A DNA stretch of 38,640 bases, taken from positions 1-38,640 of IMG/VR virus record IMGVR_UViG_3300036828_000180; one strand, written 5' to 3'. This stretch comes from a virus. A model generated the notes under the pieces. The model saw nothing but the letters and a program-made list of their open reading frames with translations, ran no database searches and was not told the DNA's origin. Both the position numbers and the translations under genes were made by a program. Below, in pieces: positions 7,974 to 37,397 of the stretch; positions within the stretch are counted from its first letter, which is position 1, and every line of letters begins with the position of its first letter.

Positions 7974-8468
7974 ATGGCTGCCCATAAGAATACCCCGGAA
8001 AACTTTTGGAGCAAGGTCAGGATTAGCCAGCCAGACGAGTGCTGGCCGTGGCTCGCAGGCAGTAACAAGGGTGGATACGGGAAGATAAAGTGGCATAGCG
8101 TTGATTACGGAGCGCATCGGATTGCATACGAGCTTGCGAATGGAGAAACCCTCGGACGAGGCGTAAGAGGTTACAGTCCGAGCGCCATTTGCGTCTTGCA
8201 CAGTTGCGATAATCGTCTTTGCTGTAACCCGGCTCATCTCTGGCTCGGCACAGCCCTTGACAATGTTCGAGACCGCCACTCCAAAAACAGAACACGCACA
8301 CCACAAGGTAGCGCCCATGGCCACGCAAAACTGACTGAGGCTGATATTCCGAAAATTAGAACGTGCTTTACAGCTGGCAATACTCAACTGCGAATCGCAG
8401 AAGCTTTCGGCGTTTCCGAGGGAACAATAAACGATATCAAAAGAGGCATTACGTGGCGTCATGTTTGA
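7974..8468 (+). CDS. HNH homing-type endonuclease
   Basis: A 164-residue protein on the strand opposite to the virion genes. An N-terminal module (ECWPWLAGSNKGGYG, then AHRIAYELANG) precedes an HNH core at 74-93, VLHSCDNRLCCNPAHLWLGT, with His76, Asn85 and His88 as likely metal or catalytic residues. The C-terminus (about 115-164) contains a DNA-binding helix-turn-helix (LRIAEAFGVSEGTINDIKRG), as in phage intron-type nucleases. AGGTAAG lies 13 bases before the ATG. It fills the gap between the tail-fibre gene (stop at 8474) and the next virion gene, so it is a free-standing selfish endonuclease by layout. Confidence 0.88.
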   Translation: MAAHKNTPENFWSKVRISQPDECWPWLAGSNKGGYGKIKWHSVDYGAHRIAYELANGETLGRGVRGYSPSAICVLHSCDNRLCCNPAHLWLGTALDNVRDRHSKNRTRTPQGSAHGHAKLTEADIPKIRTCFTAGNTQLRIAEAFGVSEGTINDIKRGITWRHV

Positions 8469-30534: not shown

Positions 30535-30757
30535 GCTTTCCCCAATTTTCTGCCCACGCGGTAATTTCGTGCAAGCCGGCCGTATCAACGATGCGCAACG
30601 CGCGGCCGGACTCCATGATGATCCACGTTCCTTGCCACCAACCGATTTCAACGTCACGAGTTGATCGATACGATCTCGTCGCTCGGTAACTTTCAGTAGC
30701 ATCGACAGTGCGAGCAATCCGGTCGCCTATCAGGTCGGTAATCGCGATCTGTCTCAT
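30497..30757 (-). CDS. Small hypothetical protein
   Basis: An 86-residue protein; its ATG overlaps the stop of the ADP-ribosyltransferase-like gene (ATGA), with AGGAAAGCCA just before. It is Arg-rich at first (DLIGDRIARTVDATESYRAT), has a Trp-rich middle (IGWWQGTWIIMES) and ends GQVYRPVYAGN. No family is recognised. It could be a small beta-barrel protein; no function is claimed. Confidence 0.6.
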   Translation of the reverse strand: MRQIAITDLIGDRIARTVDATESYRATRSYRSTRDVEIGWWQGTWIIMESGRALRIVDTAGLHEITAWAENWGKHGQVYRPVYAGN

Positions 30758-32304
30758 TGGCTTTCCTGTGCCGAGCCGCCCATTGCGGCTGGGATGGCGG
30801 ATGACGTGGCGAACGCGGGCACGGCATACTTGCGGACGATGCGCATGATGGACGGGTCGAACACGACGTAATTGCTGGTGCCTTCGCCCGCGCGGCGCGA
30901 ACCGGCGTCCAGGTATTTGATGCCGGGTACGCCGGCTTCGCGGAGCGCGGCGGATGCTGCCTGTGGATCGTTGTGGAACGAGGAAAGCTCGCGATACAGT
31001 TCATTCCCGCGCGCAGACCCCACGACGTTAGGATCGTAACCAGTAGATATCAGTGCCTGCTGCACCTGCGGGCTCTGCTCTGACAGCGGCTTGTCCCAGT
31101 CGAGGAAGTGCTGCGGGTCGGCCGCTATCTCTACTTCATACATCCGGCCTGGACTACGGGGCGCCTCTCGCAAAATACGCTGAGCCTCTGCCGCTGCCGC
31201 ATCACGCTGCGCCGAAAGCGCGTCAATCTTAGGTCGGTATATAGCCTCTACATCCGGGTGGAACTTTATCCCTACATCAGCCCAGTCCTTGTTGGTCCGC
31301 GTTCCGAGCCTTTGGCTCTCGGACATTGCCGAGTTTTGCAACCCGTTGATTGCTCGCTGAAGCTCAACGGCCTCGTCGTCTGCCTTTATAAAAGCAGCCG
31401 TATTTGTGGCAGGCAGTCTGCCCACAGCCCGATATGACTTCGCCACTGCCTCCTGCTCCGCCACATACAACCCATGCCCGTACTGCTGCGCGCCCTCGCC
31501 GGTGCCGATCTGGCTGGCATCGAACGCATCGAAGTCGTGCGGGCTGCCATGGAACGCGCGGATCATCGGCGTGGCAGGAGCAACCGGCATCAGCGCGGAC
31601 GGCCCGTCGTCCATCTTCTGGTATGTCGCAACCGGCGTCGCGTTTCTGATGAGCGCTTCACCGACGTCATCCCCGCCGCCAGCGTAATCCCCCTTCACTA
31701 GAGTAACGTGCTGCCCAGGATAATAATGGTATGGCTTTCCGTAAGGTGCGACACCGGCGTCAGACAGCGCCCTTTCAACCGCCGCGCGGTTATCACCATA
31801 AATGCCAACCGTCGATGTTCCACCTAAGACCTGATCGGTAGGCTTGCCATCGTCCCAAACCCGACTTGGCGGCAGAACCCCCTTACTAAGATCGATCGGA
31901 TCATCGGTGACACGTATGCCCCATTGTGAGTTAGGATCAGACGAAACATGATCCAAAATGTGCTGCACAGGGTCCATACGACCCATACTAGCACGCCCCA
32001 ATATCCCTGGCGTATCCTTCGGCGCCGTGCTGGCGAGCGCCACGCCCTGCGCGACCTGCATCGCGGCATCGCGCGCCCCTGCTGGTGTCGGAGCCCCTCG
32101 TGCTTCGTCCCACATCCCGCGCTGTGCCGACTCTGCCCGCTGTGCTGCGACCCAATCGGCCAGCGCATGTGCGTTGTAGGAGTACGCATCGGCCAGCGTC
32201 GGGGCGCCTCCACGCAACGGGTCGCCGTTCAGCAGCGATGTGTTGCCGCGCAGGCTGGGCGGATCGTCTGCGGCGCGCGGTGCGTCATTGATCAGCGATG
32301 GCAT
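30754..32304 (-). CDS. ADP-ribosyltransferase-like (ART-PolyVal type) protein
   Basis: A 516-residue protein; the ATG at 32304 follows the upstream stop by two bases and is preferred over an in-frame upstream start. Residues 1-240 are a helical, Ala/Pro-rich region. From about 248 a PARP-like ART fold appears: IRAFHGSPHDFDAFDASQIG (His-Gly-Ser strand, 248-267), GEGAQQYGHGLYVAEQE (269-285; GHGLY is the H-Y site), a long helix, and a C-terminal GIKYLDAGSRRAGEGTSN with NYVVFDPSIMRIV. I recognise this as the ART domain of phage polyvalent proteins. If active it would transfer ADP-ribose to a host or phage protein; the third catalytic residue cannot be placed by eye. Confidence 0.76.
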   Translation of the reverse strand: MPSLINDAPRAADDPPSLRGNTSLLNGDPLRGGAPTLADAYSYNAHALADWVAAQRAESAQRGMWDEARGAPTPAGARDAAMQVAQGVALASTAPKDTPGILGRASMGRMDPVQHILDHVSSDPNSQWGIRVTDDPIDLSKGVLPPSRVWDDGKPTDQVLGGTSTVGIYGDNRAAVERALSDAGVAPYGKPYHYYPGQHVTLVKGDYAGGGDDVGEALIRNATPVATYQKMDDGPSALMPVAPATPMIRAFHGSPHDFDAFDASQIGTGEGAQQYGHGLYVAEQEAVAKSYRAVGRLPATNTAAFIKADDEAVELQRAINGLQNSAMSESQRLGTRTNKDWADVGIKFHPDVEAIYRPKIDALSAQRDAAAAEAQRILREAPRSPGRMYEVEIAADPQHFLDWDKPLSEQSPQVQQALISTGYDPNVVGSARGNELYRELSSFHNDPQAASAALREAGVPGIKYLDAGSRRAGEGTSNYVVFDPSIMRIVRKYAVPAFATSSAIPAAMGGSAQESQ

Positions 32305-32306
32305 CG

Positions 32307-32531
32307 TTACCCACGGTGCGCTCCGCCAGCGAGGCCGCAGAAGCCGCTGTCCTTCTCGCCCATGCTCCGCCGCCACGCCATGCATTGATCCGCGATGCAG
32401 TGCGTCTGATGCCGTATCGACGCCTCACGCGCGATGTCGTGGGGGATGCGGTTCACGCTCACCCCGTTCCAGTTAACGCGGCTGAACGGGCACCATTTTG
32501 ACTTGGCCTCTTGTTCAGACATGATGGTCAT
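32307..32531 (-). CDS. Small Cys-rich phage protein
   Basis: A 74-residue protein. The ATG at 32531 has GGGGTGAG seven bases upstream; a GTG at 32543 overlapping the terL stop and an ATG at 32522 are other options. Cys residues lie in KWCPFSRVNWNG, HCIADQCMAWRR and GFCGLAG, forming a possible zinc site. Small proteins with the pattern CPF...CI.xxCMAW...CGLAG occur widely in tailed phages next to packaging genes. Function unknown. Confidence 0.68.
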   Translation of the reverse strand: MTIMSEQEAKSKWCPFSRVNWNGVSVNRIPHDIAREASIRHQTHCIADQCMAWRRSMGEKDSGFCGLAGGAHRG

Positions 32532-32539
32532 ACGACTGC

Positions 32540-33907
32540 TCACCCCAGCATGCCGACCCCGCGAATGCTCTCGCGGAACGCCGGCACCTTCGGCATCGGC
32601 TGATCGTCGATCTCGCGCGCTCCCATGGCCAGAGTTCGGAATGCGTCGGCATCATCTGACGCCCAGTCGTGCAACGGCGCAGCGGACCACACCTGACGCG
32701 CTTCGTTCCATTCGCGGCGATAGGAGCGCAGGCTTTTCAACCCTGCGGCGCAACGCTCGGCATCAAACCAGCACATTGGCAGCACCAGCATAACGGCGTT
32801 GATGCCATCTTTCACCGCACCAGGGCCAGACGGGACGGTGACGATGTTGCGCAATCCGAGGCTCTGCAATGTGGCGCGGCGGCTGCGGCCTGTGCCAAGC
32901 TCATCGACCTCCACGTCATGCGGAAGCAAATGCCTGGCGTACGTGTATGGCTTCTGCGCCAGCACGCGCACCGTATCGGGCAGACCGGAGCGGATATCCG
33001 AGAAGTGGTCGAAGATCCGCCACTGACCGGAGCGCGTAATCTGGGCAAACCACACGGACGTGGCATTGTCCATGCCGAGATCCCAGCCTGTCGTGACGGG
33101 CAGCCTTGGATCATATGGCACTGTGGTAATGCGGCCCTCGGACTCGGCCTCCTGCATCAGCTTGCCGTAGTAGCTTCCCGAGTTCGGCGCCTCGAAGCTA
33201 CACATCATCTCCTGGTCGAACTCCTCGGGCGTCATTTCCTGACGCAGCCGGGCGATCGCCTTGTCTGACAGGGTGTTGGTCATCGTGCAGTCCAGGAAGT
33301 AGGAGCTGTAGTCCGGCGAGATTTTAGCGTGGTCATAGGCCGCCCTAAGCAACCCATGACCTTTCGGTGTGCCGCTGCGCACCAACGTGCCGTCGCGATC
33401 GGCAAGCATCGGCTCGATCACCAGCGGCACCATTTTAGCGGGTGTGTCGTCGTATTCGTCAACGATACACTCATCTGCATAGCCGCCGCGCCACTTATCC
33501 GGATCGTCCGCGCCGCCGCATTGATAGACGCCGCCATTGGGCAGGGTGATGGCCATGTCGGATCGTCGCACAATAGCGCCTGGGATCGACTGAGCGGCAA
33601 GCATGACCTGATCCCACAAGCCGGTGCGTTTCCACGTCACATTGTAGGGAAGGATATGCACGACACGCGGCAGCAGCTTGCTCTCTATGAGGCCGCGTTT
33701 GATGCCGCGCCACATGAGGCCGATGGACTTGCCGGCGCGGCGATGCACGACGGCGACGATGCGCGGCGATGGATCGTCAATCAGCGGTCTCTGCCATGGG
33801 CGTGGGGAGAACGGCAGGACAATCCTTTGCTCTACTGTAGGAGCGGCGGCAGCCTTTCGTCGCTGTTCCTGGTAGTATCGTTCTCGATAGTAAGAGCGTT
33901 TGACCAT
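32540..33907 (-). CDS. terL: Terminase large subunit
   Basis: A 455-residue packaging motor. Walker A is VVHRRAGKSIG (53-63), Walker B is ECIVDEYDD (146-154), with the coupling residues in RSGTPKGHG (177-185). The C-terminal RNase-H-like nuclease has its acidic residues in TTGWDLGMDNA (272-282) and DWASDDADAFRT (414-425). It overlaps terS by 76 bases in another frame, and no internal start is better, so the long overlap seems real. It cuts and pumps DNA through the portal encoded downstream. Confidence 0.93.
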   Translation of the reverse strand: MVKRSYYRERYYQEQRRKAAAAPTVEQRIVLPFSPRPWQRPLIDDPSPRIVAVVHRRAGKSIGLMWRGIKRGLIESKLLPRVVHILPYNVTWKRTGLWDQVMLAAQSIPGAIVRRSDMAITLPNGGVYQCGGADDPDKWRGGYADECIVDEYDDTPAKMVPLVIEPMLADRDGTLVRSGTPKGHGLLRAAYDHAKISPDYSSYFLDCTMTNTLSDKAIARLRQEMTPEEFDQEMMCSFEAPNSGSYYGKLMQEAESEGRITTVPYDPRLPVTTGWDLGMDNATSVWFAQITRSGQWRIFDHFSDIRSGLPDTVRVLAQKPYTYARHLLPHDVEVDELGTGRSRRATLQSLGLRNIVTVPSGPGAVKDGINAVMLVLPMCWFDAERCAAGLKSLRSYRREWNEARQVWSAAPLHDWASDDADAFRTLAMGAREIDDQPMPKVPAFRESIRGVGMLG

Positions 33908-34281
33908 TCGTATTTCACGACAATCGGTGCATTCGGGTTGCCATTCACGGTCGCATCGACGTCGGCCTTGTCACGCTGTCCTAGCATTTGCTTGCCCAGC
34001 CATATCAGCATGGTGCTATCGCCGGTCTGCGCCTTCTGCCATTGCAGCCTGCGGAGCGTTGTTTTACCGAGTGCGCTGCCTTCCTGGTATGCTACCCCAA
34101 GGGCAGGTTCCAGCTCCATGCGGTGGTACATGGTCTCGACGGCAACGGCGCATGCAACCGCGAGTTCCTCGATCGTGCAGCCGATGCCGGCTAGACGACG
34201 CACCAGGTCCAGGTCGATCGGCTTGCGCGGGGCGCCGCCGTGCCCGGGGTCGGGGCCACGCTTGCCACTGAGCTTGCCCAT
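33832..34281 (-). CDS. terS: Terminase small subunit
   Basis: A 149-residue protein. The ATG at 34281 shares its first base with the stop of the upstream short frame (TAATG), giving strong coupling. Residues 21-50 (IDLDLVRRLAGIGCTIEELA, then VAVETMYHR) form the N-terminal HTH for DNA recognition, followed by a helical oligomerisation part, LGKTTLRRLQWQKAQTGDS. A conserved-looking MLIWLGKQMLGQRDK (103-117) is common to many phage small terminases. It lies directly before terL, as usual. Confidence 0.85.
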   Translation of the reverse strand: MGKLSGKRGPDPGHGGAPRKPIDLDLVRRLAGIGCTIEELAVACAVAVETMYHRMELEPALGVAYQEGSALGKTTLRRLQWQKAQTGDSTMLIWLGKQMLGQRDKADVDATVNGNPNAPIVVKYEWSNALTIENDTTRNSDERLPPLLQ

Positions 34282-34391
34282 TATGCCGCCTCTGCCGGCT
34301 GTGCGGCGCGCACGGCGGCGGTGTCGGCGAAGGTGCGGCCGGTGAGCGCGTGCGTTGCGGTAGCGCCGGCGAACGCCTGCCAGCGGAGCAC
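34281..34391 (-). pseudogene. Orphan copy of a methyltransferase C-terminus
   Basis: A 36-residue frame (GTG at 34391, stop TAA at 34281) reads VLRWQAFAGATATHALTGRT then FADTAAVRAAQ. This is clearly related to the C-terminal end of the upstream methyltransferase (IIRWQNFTGAEATLASTGQT, YAEVAA), but the DNA is much diverged. It lies between the zinc-ribbon gene and terS. It looks like the original 3' end of the methyltransferase gene, displaced when the zinc-ribbon gene was inserted. It may still be translated, since AAAAGGAGGG precedes it, and it could couple terS. Confidence 0.65.
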
Positions 34392-34393
34392 GG

Positions 34394-34885
34394 CTATCGG
34401 TGCGTCCCTCCTTTTGGCTCGGCGCGATCCCAAGCGCGGTGACATCGGACGCACAACCAACGCACCTCCAGCGGCTTTGTGTAGTCGCGGTGCGCCGCCT
34501 CGATGCGCCCGGCGTTGCCGCATTGGGTGCAGATGCGTGCTCGCCCCGCTGCCGCTGTGCGAACCTGCCGGGGCTTGCGTGGTTGCGCGCTGCGGTGCGC
34601 ATAGGCGCAAGCCGTCGAGCAGAAGCGCAGAAAGAGGTGGTCGATTGGCCCAAACCGCTGGCCGCAGTACTCGCAATTGCGGAAGGTCTGTGGCCTTGCT
34701 GCGTGACGGCAAGCCTCGGAACAGAACTGCTGCGAGCGGCTGCCGATGAACGCCGCGCCACACTGGCAGGTCCGGGATGTCAGGCCGTGGCATTGCTTGC
34801 ACCGAGCAGCGTAGACGCCTCGCTTGTCGATCCAGAACTCGCTGTATGGCTTGAATTCGTCGCAATATCGGCACTGTTTCGACAC
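34394..34885 (-). CDS. Zinc-ribbon HNH-like putative endonuclease
   Basis: A 163-residue protein with a GTG start and GGAAGTGG nearby; a longer in-frame start inside the methyltransferase seems less likely. It has many Cys pairs: CRYC (5, 8), CKQC (29, 32), CQCG (40, 42), CSEAC (55, 59), CEYC (71, 74), CSTAC (89, 93), CTQC (119, 122) and CVRC (145, 148). The last part, IEAAHRDYTKPLEVRWLC with CVRCHRAWD, is the His-Asp/His-Cys pattern of HNH-type phage endonucleases (His132). It sits between two versions of a methyltransferase C-terminus, as expected for a mobile endonuclease. Confidence 0.7.
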   Translation of the reverse strand: MSKQCRYCDEFKPYSEFWIDKRGVYAARCKQCHGLTSRTCQCGAAFIGSRSQQFCSEACRHAARPQTFRNCEYCGQRFGPIDHLFLRFCSTACAYAHRSAQPRKPRQVRTAAAGRARICTQCGNAGRIEAAHRDYTKPLEVRWLCVRCHRAWDRAEPKGGTHR

Positions 34886-36135
34886 GCCGCCACTTCCGCA
34901 TAGGTCTGGCCGGTGCTCGCAAGTGTCGCCTCGGCTCCCGTGAAGTTCTGCCATCTGATTATGCCGCAGTCAACATAATTGGGCGATATCTCGATGGCGT
35001 GGCAGGCGCGTCCGGTCATCTCCGCGGCAATGATGGTGGTGCCGGAGCCGACGAACGGATCATAGACGGCCTGCCCGGCGCTGGAGTTGTTCTCGATCGG
35101 TCGACGCATGCACTCGACGGGCTTCTGGGCGGAGTGGCCGGTTTCGGATTTCACCGGCTTATCGATGTTCCAAACTGTCGTCTGCTTGCGATCACCTTGC
35201 CAGTGCGCGGTGTTGCGCACAGCGTACCAGCACGGCTCATGCTGGACGTGGTAATTGCCGCGCCCGATCGGGAAATGTGACTTGGCCCAGATGATTTGCA
35301 TTCGGACATCAAAGCCGGCAGCGACGAGTGCATTGAAGTGATCGACCTGCATGGCACCCGGCGGGTGCCATGCATAGACGACATCCCCGGGAAACAGCAG
35401 CCACGCATCGCGCCAGTCCGCGCGTTTGTCGTTCTGCACGACCCCTATGGCGCGAGCGCCATAGGGTTTTCCGTTCGCTCGATCGGCGCGATTGCGCCAG
35501 TCTGGATCGTAATCCACCCCATATGGCGGATCGGTGACCATGAGGTGGGGCTTCACGCCGCCGAGGCAGAGCGACACATCCACCTCTGACGTTGCATCGC
35601 CGCACACCAGCCGATGCCGCCCCAGCAGCCACACATCGCCAAGCCGCGACACGGGCTCGGCCGGCGTCTCTGGCACGTCATCGGGATCAGTGAGGCCCCC
35701 GGTGCGATCGGCGAGGATCGAGGCAAGTTCGTCATCGCTGAAGCCGATGAGCGACAGGTCGAAGTCGGCCGCGCCGAGTTCGCCCAGCTCCAGCGCGAGC
35801 AACTCCGCGTCCCAGCCTGCGGTCAGCGCGAGTTGGTTGTCGGCGATCACCAGCGCCCGCTTCTGCTCTGCCGATAGCCCGGTGAGCGTGATGGTGGGCA
35901 CCTCTGCCATGCCGAGCTTCTGCGCGGCGGCCAGGCGTCCGTGGCCTGCGATGATGCCGCTGTGCTCATCGATCAAAATTGGATTTGTCCATCCGAAAGC
36001 GGCGATCGAGCGGGCGATCTGCTCAACCTGGGCGGGCGAGTGGGTGCGCGGATTACGCGCGGCAGGACGTATCGCGGATAGCGACATGTATAAAATTGCG
36101 AGACGGTTTAACCTTTCAGACAAGTAGTGCCTCAC
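34780..36135 (-). CDS. ParB-like / DNA (adenine or cytosine-N4) methyltransferase fusion
   Basis: A 451-residue protein. Residues 19-100 are ParB/Srx-like (NPRTHSPAQVEQIARSIAAF, HSGIIAGHGRLAAAQ, ALVIADN). From about 165 a beta-class amino-methyltransferase follows: TDPPYGVDYD (201-210; DPPY motif) first, later YDPFVGSGTTIIAAE (358-372; FxGxG motif). This order is typical of phage-borne orphan methylases. GTG at 36135 overlaps the upstream stop; an ATG at 36087 has no better ribosome site. The last ~40 residues after TYAEVAA are foreign-looking (Ser/Thr-rich) and overlap the zinc-ribbon gene. It may protect phage DNA from host restriction. Confidence 0.87.
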   Translation of the reverse strand: MRHYLSERLNRLAILYMSLSAIRPAARNPRTHSPAQVEQIARSIAAFGWTNPILIDEHSGIIAGHGRLAAAQKLGMAEVPTITLTGLSAEQKRALVIADNQLALTAGWDAELLALELGELGAADFDLSLIGFSDDELASILADRTGGLTDPDDVPETPAEPVSRLGDVWLLGRHRLVCGDATSEVDVSLCLGGVKPHLMVTDPPYGVDYDPDWRNRADRANGKPYGARAIGVVQNDKRADWRDAWLLFPGDVVYAWHPPGAMQVDHFNALVAAGFDVRMQIIWAKSHFPIGRGNYHVQHEPCWYAVRNTAHWQGDRKQTTVWNIDKPVKSETGHSAQKPVECMRRPIENNSSAGQAVYDPFVGSGTTIIAAEMTGRACHAIEISPNYVDCGIIRWQNFTGAEATLASTGQTYAEVAACRNSADIATNSSHTASSGSTSEASTLLGASNATA

Positions 36136-36778: not shown

Positions 36779-36916
36779 TGGCAGCTTGCGCTTGCCGGCT
36801 TTCTTGTCGGCGGAGGCGAATTCGCGGCCGACAGACTGCGGCACTCCGCCATAGCCGCCCTTGGTGTGGGCTGCGATGTTCATCAGCTTTTTCTGCTGCA
36901 TGGATTTGCTAGGCAC
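36743..36916 (-). CDS. Small basic PSKS-type phage protein
   Basis: A 57-residue protein with a GTG start overlapping the 3' end of the LAGLIDADG gene; TAAGG lies about 11 bases upstream. It reads PSKSMQQKKLMNIAAHTKGG, then VPQSVGREFASADKKAG and LPNRIGRGLINRG. Small basic proteins starting MPSKS with a VPQ.VG.EF..AD segment are common in tailed phages; function is unknown. The neighbouring 37394 gene also has an MPSKS start. Confidence 0.68.
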   Translation of the reverse strand: MPSKSMQQKKLMNIAAHTKGGYGGVPQSVGREFASADKKAGKRKLPNRIGRGLINRG

Positions 36917-37397
36917 GTTTTGCAGCCTTAAGTTCTAAGATCATGGCACGTTTTTCCTGTATCATATCAGTAGGTTGCATGATACCGCGCGGCTGGTTGA
37001 ACTTCGATCGGAAGGACAAGGCAATCGCTATTTGTGGCTTTTTGATAATGCAATATGGCTCCAGCACCCGCATGAAATACTCTGCATTGGCGCCAGTTAG
37101 GCGCCACACATATCCTTGCTGCCAATGATCTTTCCCGAACGACTTCTTCCCGCATCTTCCTCCAACGGTATCTGTCAGCCATTGTATTATCGGCCAGTAT
37201 GTGTTGGCGATCTGCACTTGGAAGTGGAATGCTGGCCGCACTCCAAACCCGGCACGAGGAATGCCTATCTCGTAAATACCGATACTGCCTTCGCCGTCGA
37301 AAAGCCCTGCGACATAAGAGAGTTGCAGTTCGGTAAGCCGGTCTATGAGTTCCGCAGTCCTTTTATTGATAAAAGGTCTGTCGGTCTTCTTCGTCAT
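36909..37397 (-). CDS. LAGLIDADG homing endonuclease
   Basis: A 162-residue protein; its ATG overlaps the stop of the small gene upstream (ATGA). The hallmark YVAGLFDGEGSIGI lies at 28-41, with the catalytic acidic residue in DGEGS. A beta-rich part with FHFQVQIANTYWP and WLTDTVGGRCGKKSF follows, then a helical C-terminus. One LAGLIDADG motif only, so it would act as a homodimer. No intron or intein splice elements are visible around it, so it seems free-standing, between two genes with MPSKS starts. Confidence 0.82.
   Translation of the reverse strand: MTKKTDRPFINKRTAELIDRLTELQLSYVAGLFDGEGSIGIYEIGIPRAGFGVRPAFHFQVQIANTYWPIIQWLTDTVGGRCGKKSFGKDHWQQGYVWRLTGANAEYFMRVLEPYCIIKKPQIAIALSFRSKFNQPRGIMQPTDMIQEKRAMILELKAAKRA

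Follow-up and report, generated by a model that had tools for sequence, protein, structure and literature searches.

A probable homing cassette with its own replacement gene end behind a phage DNA methyltransferase

Homing genes are usually regarded as residents of introns, of inteins or of the gaps between genes, or else as splitting the gene that they enter. Mobile open reading frames (ORFs) of fungal mitochondria make hybrid genes, as in Allomyces atp6, in Glomus sp. atp6, atp9, cox2 and nad3, in Rhizopus atp9 and in Mortierella cox2: the insert combines a foreign C-terminal coding end with an endonuclease gene, and the native end lies downstream, nearer to uninserted relatives than the inserted end is (PMC3630166). 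Among phages, T4-like ones have free-standing HNH (mob) endonucleases whose genes sit within phage genes and are passed on at high frequency when infections are mixed (PMC2988022), and in mycobacteriophage methylases the ShiLan insertion consists of an HNH read out of frame (PMC11855218, PMC9957025). Here we analyse a 38,640-base virus record, IMGVR_UViG_3300036828_000180 (the whole stretch is referred to as the window), in which a DNA methyltransferase (MTase) gene next to the terminase small subunit gene, terS, is built like the fungal hybrids in both respects. The unit at 34400-34982 is probably a homing cassette in which a recoded MTase 3′ end is joined to a gene for an HNH-like endonuclease, and we propose a homing cycle for it.

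The MTase, a zinc-ribbon HNH-like gene, a second MTase C-terminus, terS and the terminase large subunit gene, terL, all lie on the minus strand of the window. A preliminary description of this DNA had reported the MTase 3′ end twice, on either side of the HNH-like gene, and a hidden Markov model (HMM) built from the tails of 79 relatives bears this out, finding exactly two tails in the window: the first, IIRWQNFTGAEATLASTGQTYAEVAA, at 34873-34977 (49.9 bits, E 2e-13), and the second, VLRWQAFAGATATHALTGRTFADTAA, at 34299-34397 (41.4 bits, E 9e-11). Since the third-ranking match scored 8 bits, the duplicate tail is not a chance match and the observation is real. Protein identity between the two tails is 58% and DNA identity 59%. 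The intervening gene has the eight Cys pairs (counted as Cys-x(1-3)-Cys) and the HNH-like end ascribed to it, and the second tail is coupled to terS as described, its TAA overlapping the terS ATG (TAATG, 34283-34279). YAEVAA, given earlier as the end of the MTase, is present but is not the end, as the frame runs on for about 34 codons to a stop at 34780-34782. The features of the locus are as follows.

34983-36087, minus strand: native body of the MTase (ParB-N6/N4 DNA methyltransferase); DNA similarity to the insert-free relative L007 spans it and ends at 34982
34780-34982, minus strand: foreign replacement ("rescue") MTase tail, cassette-borne, ...CGIIRWQNFTGAEATLASTGQTYAEVAA plus about 34 codons and a stop; assigned from DNA identities to the L007 and stranded tails
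34394-34885, minus strand: zinc-ribbon HNH-like gene, probable homing endonuclease; phrog_2340 match, start picked by family alignment
34400-34982, minus strand: entire inserted cassette (rescue tail and HNH gene), about 580 nucleotides (nt), delimited by comparison with L007
34281-34403, minus strand: stranded native MTase tail (IAVLRWQAFAGATATHALTGRTFADTAAVRAAQPAEAA and stop); its stop overlaps the terS start, and its DNA is 87% identical to the L007 tail
33832-34281, minus strand: terS (phrog_309, 1e-4; synteny with L007, L008 and L011)
32540-33907, minus strand: terL (phrog_2, 2.5e-20)

The native MTase body starts at 36087, has a ParB-like N-terminus and an N6_N4_Mtase domain, and retains the catalytic motifs DPPY and DPFVGSGTT intact. 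The extra codons of the rescue tail overlap the HNH gene out of frame. The HNH gene likely starts at GTG 34885 (MSKQCRYC...), with ATG 34954, inside the tail, as a possible alternative.

To establish which tail is native, eighty MTase relatives were fetched for comparison. The locus L007, whose MTase is 75% identical to that of the window, lacks the zinc-ribbon gene, and its single tail, VTILRWQAFTGQTATHALTGRNFADTAAERAPQPAEAA and stop, leads into terS. Over 78 nt, the stranded window tail is 87% identical to the L007 tail in DNA (85% in protein), whereas the MTase-attached tail is only 56% identical over the same length (58% in protein). By BLASTN, similarity between the window and L007 runs to 34982 and is regained at 34388 (about 34399 in a local alignment). 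About 13-22 nt of the uninserted gene have thus given way to about 580 nt, made up of the rescue tail and the HNH gene. The replacement point, relative to L007, falls in the codons for EISPxYCD/VTILRW (the stroke marking the junction, here and below). In a tree of MTase bodies, tails excluded, the window groups with the HNH-free loci L007 and L011 (SH-aLRT 99). These comparisons support a native origin for the stranded tail and a foreign one for the attached tail, in line with both parts of the preliminary description, that the tail adjoining terS is the original C-terminus and that the mobile gene brought its own copy. The alignment it proposed, to an insert-free relative, has the one L007 tail, which matches the stranded copy, continuing into terS. 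Among the HNH-free control loci, none was found to have a second tail behind the MTase; the sole strong match, at L171 (47 bits), was rejected as one MTase read in two frames. Only distant tails came to light when a close source of the window's rescue tail was sought.

The same site is found filled and empty in three pairs, window/L007, L094/L281 and L091/L360, with DNA similarity picking up again on both sides of the insert. Between L094 and the HNH-free L281, identity is 98% in the body (428 residues) and 40% in the tail; for L091 and L360 the values are 87% and 37%. Judged by these identities, the latter two pairs show the tail switch independently of window/L007. Elsewhere the body diverges and the cassette does not: L210 and L217 share 42% identity in the body, 94% in the tail and 97% in the HNH protein, and L174 and L092 share 58%, 97% and 90%, respectively. 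HNH identity has almost no correlation with MTase-body identity (Spearman 0.16), and the MTase-body tree shows at least 14 switches in HNH presence, of which 9 are forced by well-supported (starred) branches, a count in which gain and loss are not told apart. The comparisons indicate that the HNH gene spreads independently of MTase phylogeny and that tail and HNH gene move as a unit. The MTases of L092 and L093 also appear, from their sequences, to have an intein-like mid-gene insert with GIY-YIG-like features besides the 3′ HNH cassette.

HNH relatives were gathered by alignment-based scans of IMG/VR and GTDB genomes and ranked on HNH similarity alone; as P0002 used as a lone query gave few IMG/VR matches, alignments A1 and A2 were used instead. 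From 100 bits upwards there are 37 distinct HNH genes. All are located at MTase loci, 36 of them directly behind an MTase tail, on MTases whose identity falls to about 30%. The exception, L104 (3210-3883), is an L091-like locus in which an internal deletion, real or a product of assembly, fuses the MTase start to the HNH end. At 60-100 bits, where mainly the HNH domain is held in common, 0 of 78 loci follow an MTase tail. The family of the HNH gene thus occurs almost only at the MTase 3′ end. That dozens of phages have related cassettes in this position suggests a selfish element that works by "cut and repair" in nature. A family member with its MTase was also found in the complete chromosome of the planctomycete SV_7m_r (L248), presumably in a prophage. 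A plasmid search gave no match, and named phages had only HNH-domain-level relatives of the nuclease among the matches listed. One such distant HNH relative, in Bacillus phage Bobb (L088), sits between two pieces annotated as DNA polymerase, likely a split polymerase gene.

Stranded tails recur across the family. The 300 nt following each HNH gene were scanned with an HMM of 189 HNH-free tails. At least 15 distinct loci have a second tail directly behind the HNH gene, with scores of 16-34 bits, against at most 2.7 bits in controls other than L171, and there are weaker traces at other loci (for example KRYAKFIGK in L198 and L199). The junction between HNH gene and stranded tail is nearly constant, ...WDKxxPKxxT/VIVxRWexFTG, and the tail is usually in frame with the HNH gene, as seen also at L096, L100 and L102. 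The stranded tail may often be retained since it still supplies sequence upstream of terS. At L055 (4733-5556), a different ORF of 260 residues, without a family, lies between MTase and terS and is followed by the leftover end of an MTase tail, IETERRLVDAA. We dropped this insert as a second case of the cassette, as it has no recognised nuclease; it indicates that the MTase/terS interval may accept other cargo.

Rescue tails differ from free tails at the conserved codons themselves. Taking the E of ExDPxYCDVIVxRWQxFT as position 0, Cys occurs at position 10 in 13 of 33 HNH-linked tails and in none of 189 free ones, and Q or E at position 14 in 9 of 33 HNH-linked tails as opposed to 178 of 189 free ones. 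The pattern recurs within the L094 clade (position-10 Cys, 7/11 linked and 0/44 free; position-14 Q/E, 2/11 and 42/44), and all 15 stranded tails examined have E or Q at position 14. Changes at positions 10 and 14 are what a cut-resistant rescue copy would be expected to look like. A change of RW to RY was dropped as a universal mark of immunity because free MTases in the L094 clade also have RY or RF.

The product of the inserted gene is likely a zinc-ribbon HNH nuclease. It matches a known endonuclease family, phrog_2340 (9e-17), and its L091 relative also matches the HNH endonuclease family phrog_1271 (2e-14). C119, C122, H132, C145, C148 and H149 are invariant in 32 members; in the HNH-like zinc core His, Cys and Trp are invariant, and the middle Asn of canonical HNH motifs is not conserved as Asn. 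An AlphaFold model (pLDDT, the predicted local confidence score, 88) has a C-terminal strand-strand-helix, and a sequence search of solved structures returned a zinc-finger match only (E 0.06).

We propose the following cycle. In a co-infected cell, the HNH protein would cut the uninserted MTase gene at the conserved codons ExxPxYCD/VIVxRWxxFTG, and repair of the break from the cassette-bearing gene would copy the cassette in. The MTase would be completed by the cassette's own tail, so that the host gene would not be destroyed. The rescue tail would escape cutting through its different target codons, and so would the old tail, whose site is now broken up by the HNH gene; although no longer translated as MTase, the old tail would still provide the stretch that directly precedes terS. 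What the sequences themselves show is a hybrid gene, where each of its two tails came from, a single insertion site used in many phages, tail and HNH gene travelling together, and altered target codons; from these we infer homing rather than passive insertion.

Several points weigh against this reading. Cutting, copying by repair, immunity and expression are steps that we infer. The nuclease assignment is built on PHROG matches and motifs: Foldseek against the PDB gave a best E of 0.21, which is not significant (the HNH nuclease Cap5 scored E 1.0, probability 0.66), and for this protein Pfam returned sub-threshold zinc-finger matches only and NCBIfam nothing. A stranded tail is not present throughout the family: several lineages (L091, L094 and others) have kept little or nothing of the native tail, and in L094 the cassette takes the place of the whole L281 tail and stop. 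Lastly, the recoding counts of 13/33 and 9/33 include cassettes of shared ancestry, uncorrected, and W at position 13 does not discriminate within the L094 clade.

The alternative that survives best, though we consider it unlikely, is ordinary mosaic recombination via the conserved motif, with the HNH protein doing another job, such as DNA binding or helping packaging, and having no driving role. Many HNH-like genes adjoin phage packaging genes, and the family-less gene and short leftover tail in the same interval of L055 mean that insertions there need not carry a nuclease. The HNH family is nevertheless found at this one point in 36 of 37 cases, with a constant junction and a scattered distribution on the MTase tree, and rescue tails are altered at the target positions while stranded tails are not; such specificity, junction, scatter and recoding are expected of homing and not of neutral shuffling. 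Far less probable is that the MTase 3′ end was duplicated locally on either side of an inserted gene and the copies then diverged, with nothing foreign having entered. Homologous tails on both sides of the insert, as observed, are what this would give; the DNA identities to L007 (87% and 56%) would however demand extreme divergence in one copy only, the L094 and L281 tails are 40% identical on bodies that are 98% identical, and the same HNH gene is found with near-identical tails on MTase bodies that differ. On the DNA identities we reject it as largely refuted. A spliced element, an intron or intein-like sequence whose removal would join the stranded tail to the MTase, is the most improbable of all: phage methylases do carry inteins, and the L092 MTase has its intein-like insert elsewhere, but a complete MTase tail already precedes the insert and needs no splicing, the HNH and MTase frames differ with the stranded tail often in frame with the HNH gene, and, an Rfam scan of the region giving no intron match, we rejected a group I or II intron or an intein.

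Searches of open-access papers brought up no earlier description of HNH cassettes that replace the tail of a phage MTase. The fungal ORFs differ from the cassette in residing in mitochondria, in targeting respiratory-chain genes and, in the Glomus-type cases, in encoding LAGLIDADG or GIY-YIG nucleases (PMC3630166); the phage cassette has an HNH-like zinc-ribbon family, the MTase as sole target and, in the comparative set, altered target codons. Its PHROG matches are HNH-like only and give no sign of relatedness to the LAGLIDADG or GIY-YIG nucleases of the mitochondrial elements. Unlike the cassette, mobE and mobA of T4-like phages split the host gene into two polypeptides and supply no replacement end (PMC2988022). 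The ShiLan insert is like the cassette in that its first 11 residues resemble the 11 residues after the site (PMC11855218). Its HNH belongs to a different class (best domain 13 bits against the cassette-family HMM), its methylase is not detectably related to the window-type MTase (blastp E 0.02), and its site is internal, with the methylase frame reading through the whole insert and no complete replacement tail with a stop. We therefore rejected the ShiLan element (JN020143) as a member of the same family, as HNH class, methylase and frame all differ. The similarity between insert start and post-site sequence in ShiLan gp65 (L440, JN020143) could be a short version of the target-copy trick.

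Other genes in the window touch on mobility or lie near the packaging genes. A LAGLIDADG-like protein at 36909-37397 (minus strand; phrog_5046, 8e-22; weak Pfam LAGLIDADG_1), near the MTase, is a second homing-type gene, and an HNH_3 endonuclease-like gene (Pfam PF13392, 5e-10) lies at 7974-8468 (plus strand), on the strand opposite to most genes. Downstream of terL, the gene at 30754-32385 (minus strand) has an ADP-ribosyltransferase-like domain (ART-PolyVal, 3e-5, below the cut-off) and a phrog_873 match.

Engineered home-and-rescue and cleave-and-rescue drives follow the same logic, in that an important gene is targeted and a recoded, uncut copy supplied; they are synthetic nuclease systems in insects with no relation by descent to the cassette (PMC7968924, PMC7951863). 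On balance, we favour the reading that the cassettes form a widespread, undescribed phage homing-cassette family acting as a natural home-and-rescue drive, one that would cut the MTase 3′ end where it is most conserved and supply a functional, cut-resistant tail, with many gains or losses across MTase lineages, at least nine of these changes being forced by well-supported branches. With filled and empty pairs, repeated insertions and altered codons at hand in phages, resistance and rescue are testable in simple plasmid or phage crosses. The cassette reading may also explain the so far unexplained 11-residue similarity in ShiLan, and it urges caution with hybrid MTase tails in phage genomes, which can stem from mobile cassettes. 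The family appears to rebuild the gene that it breaks, at a conserved site that is hard to mutate, which is the logic of a home-and-rescue drive.
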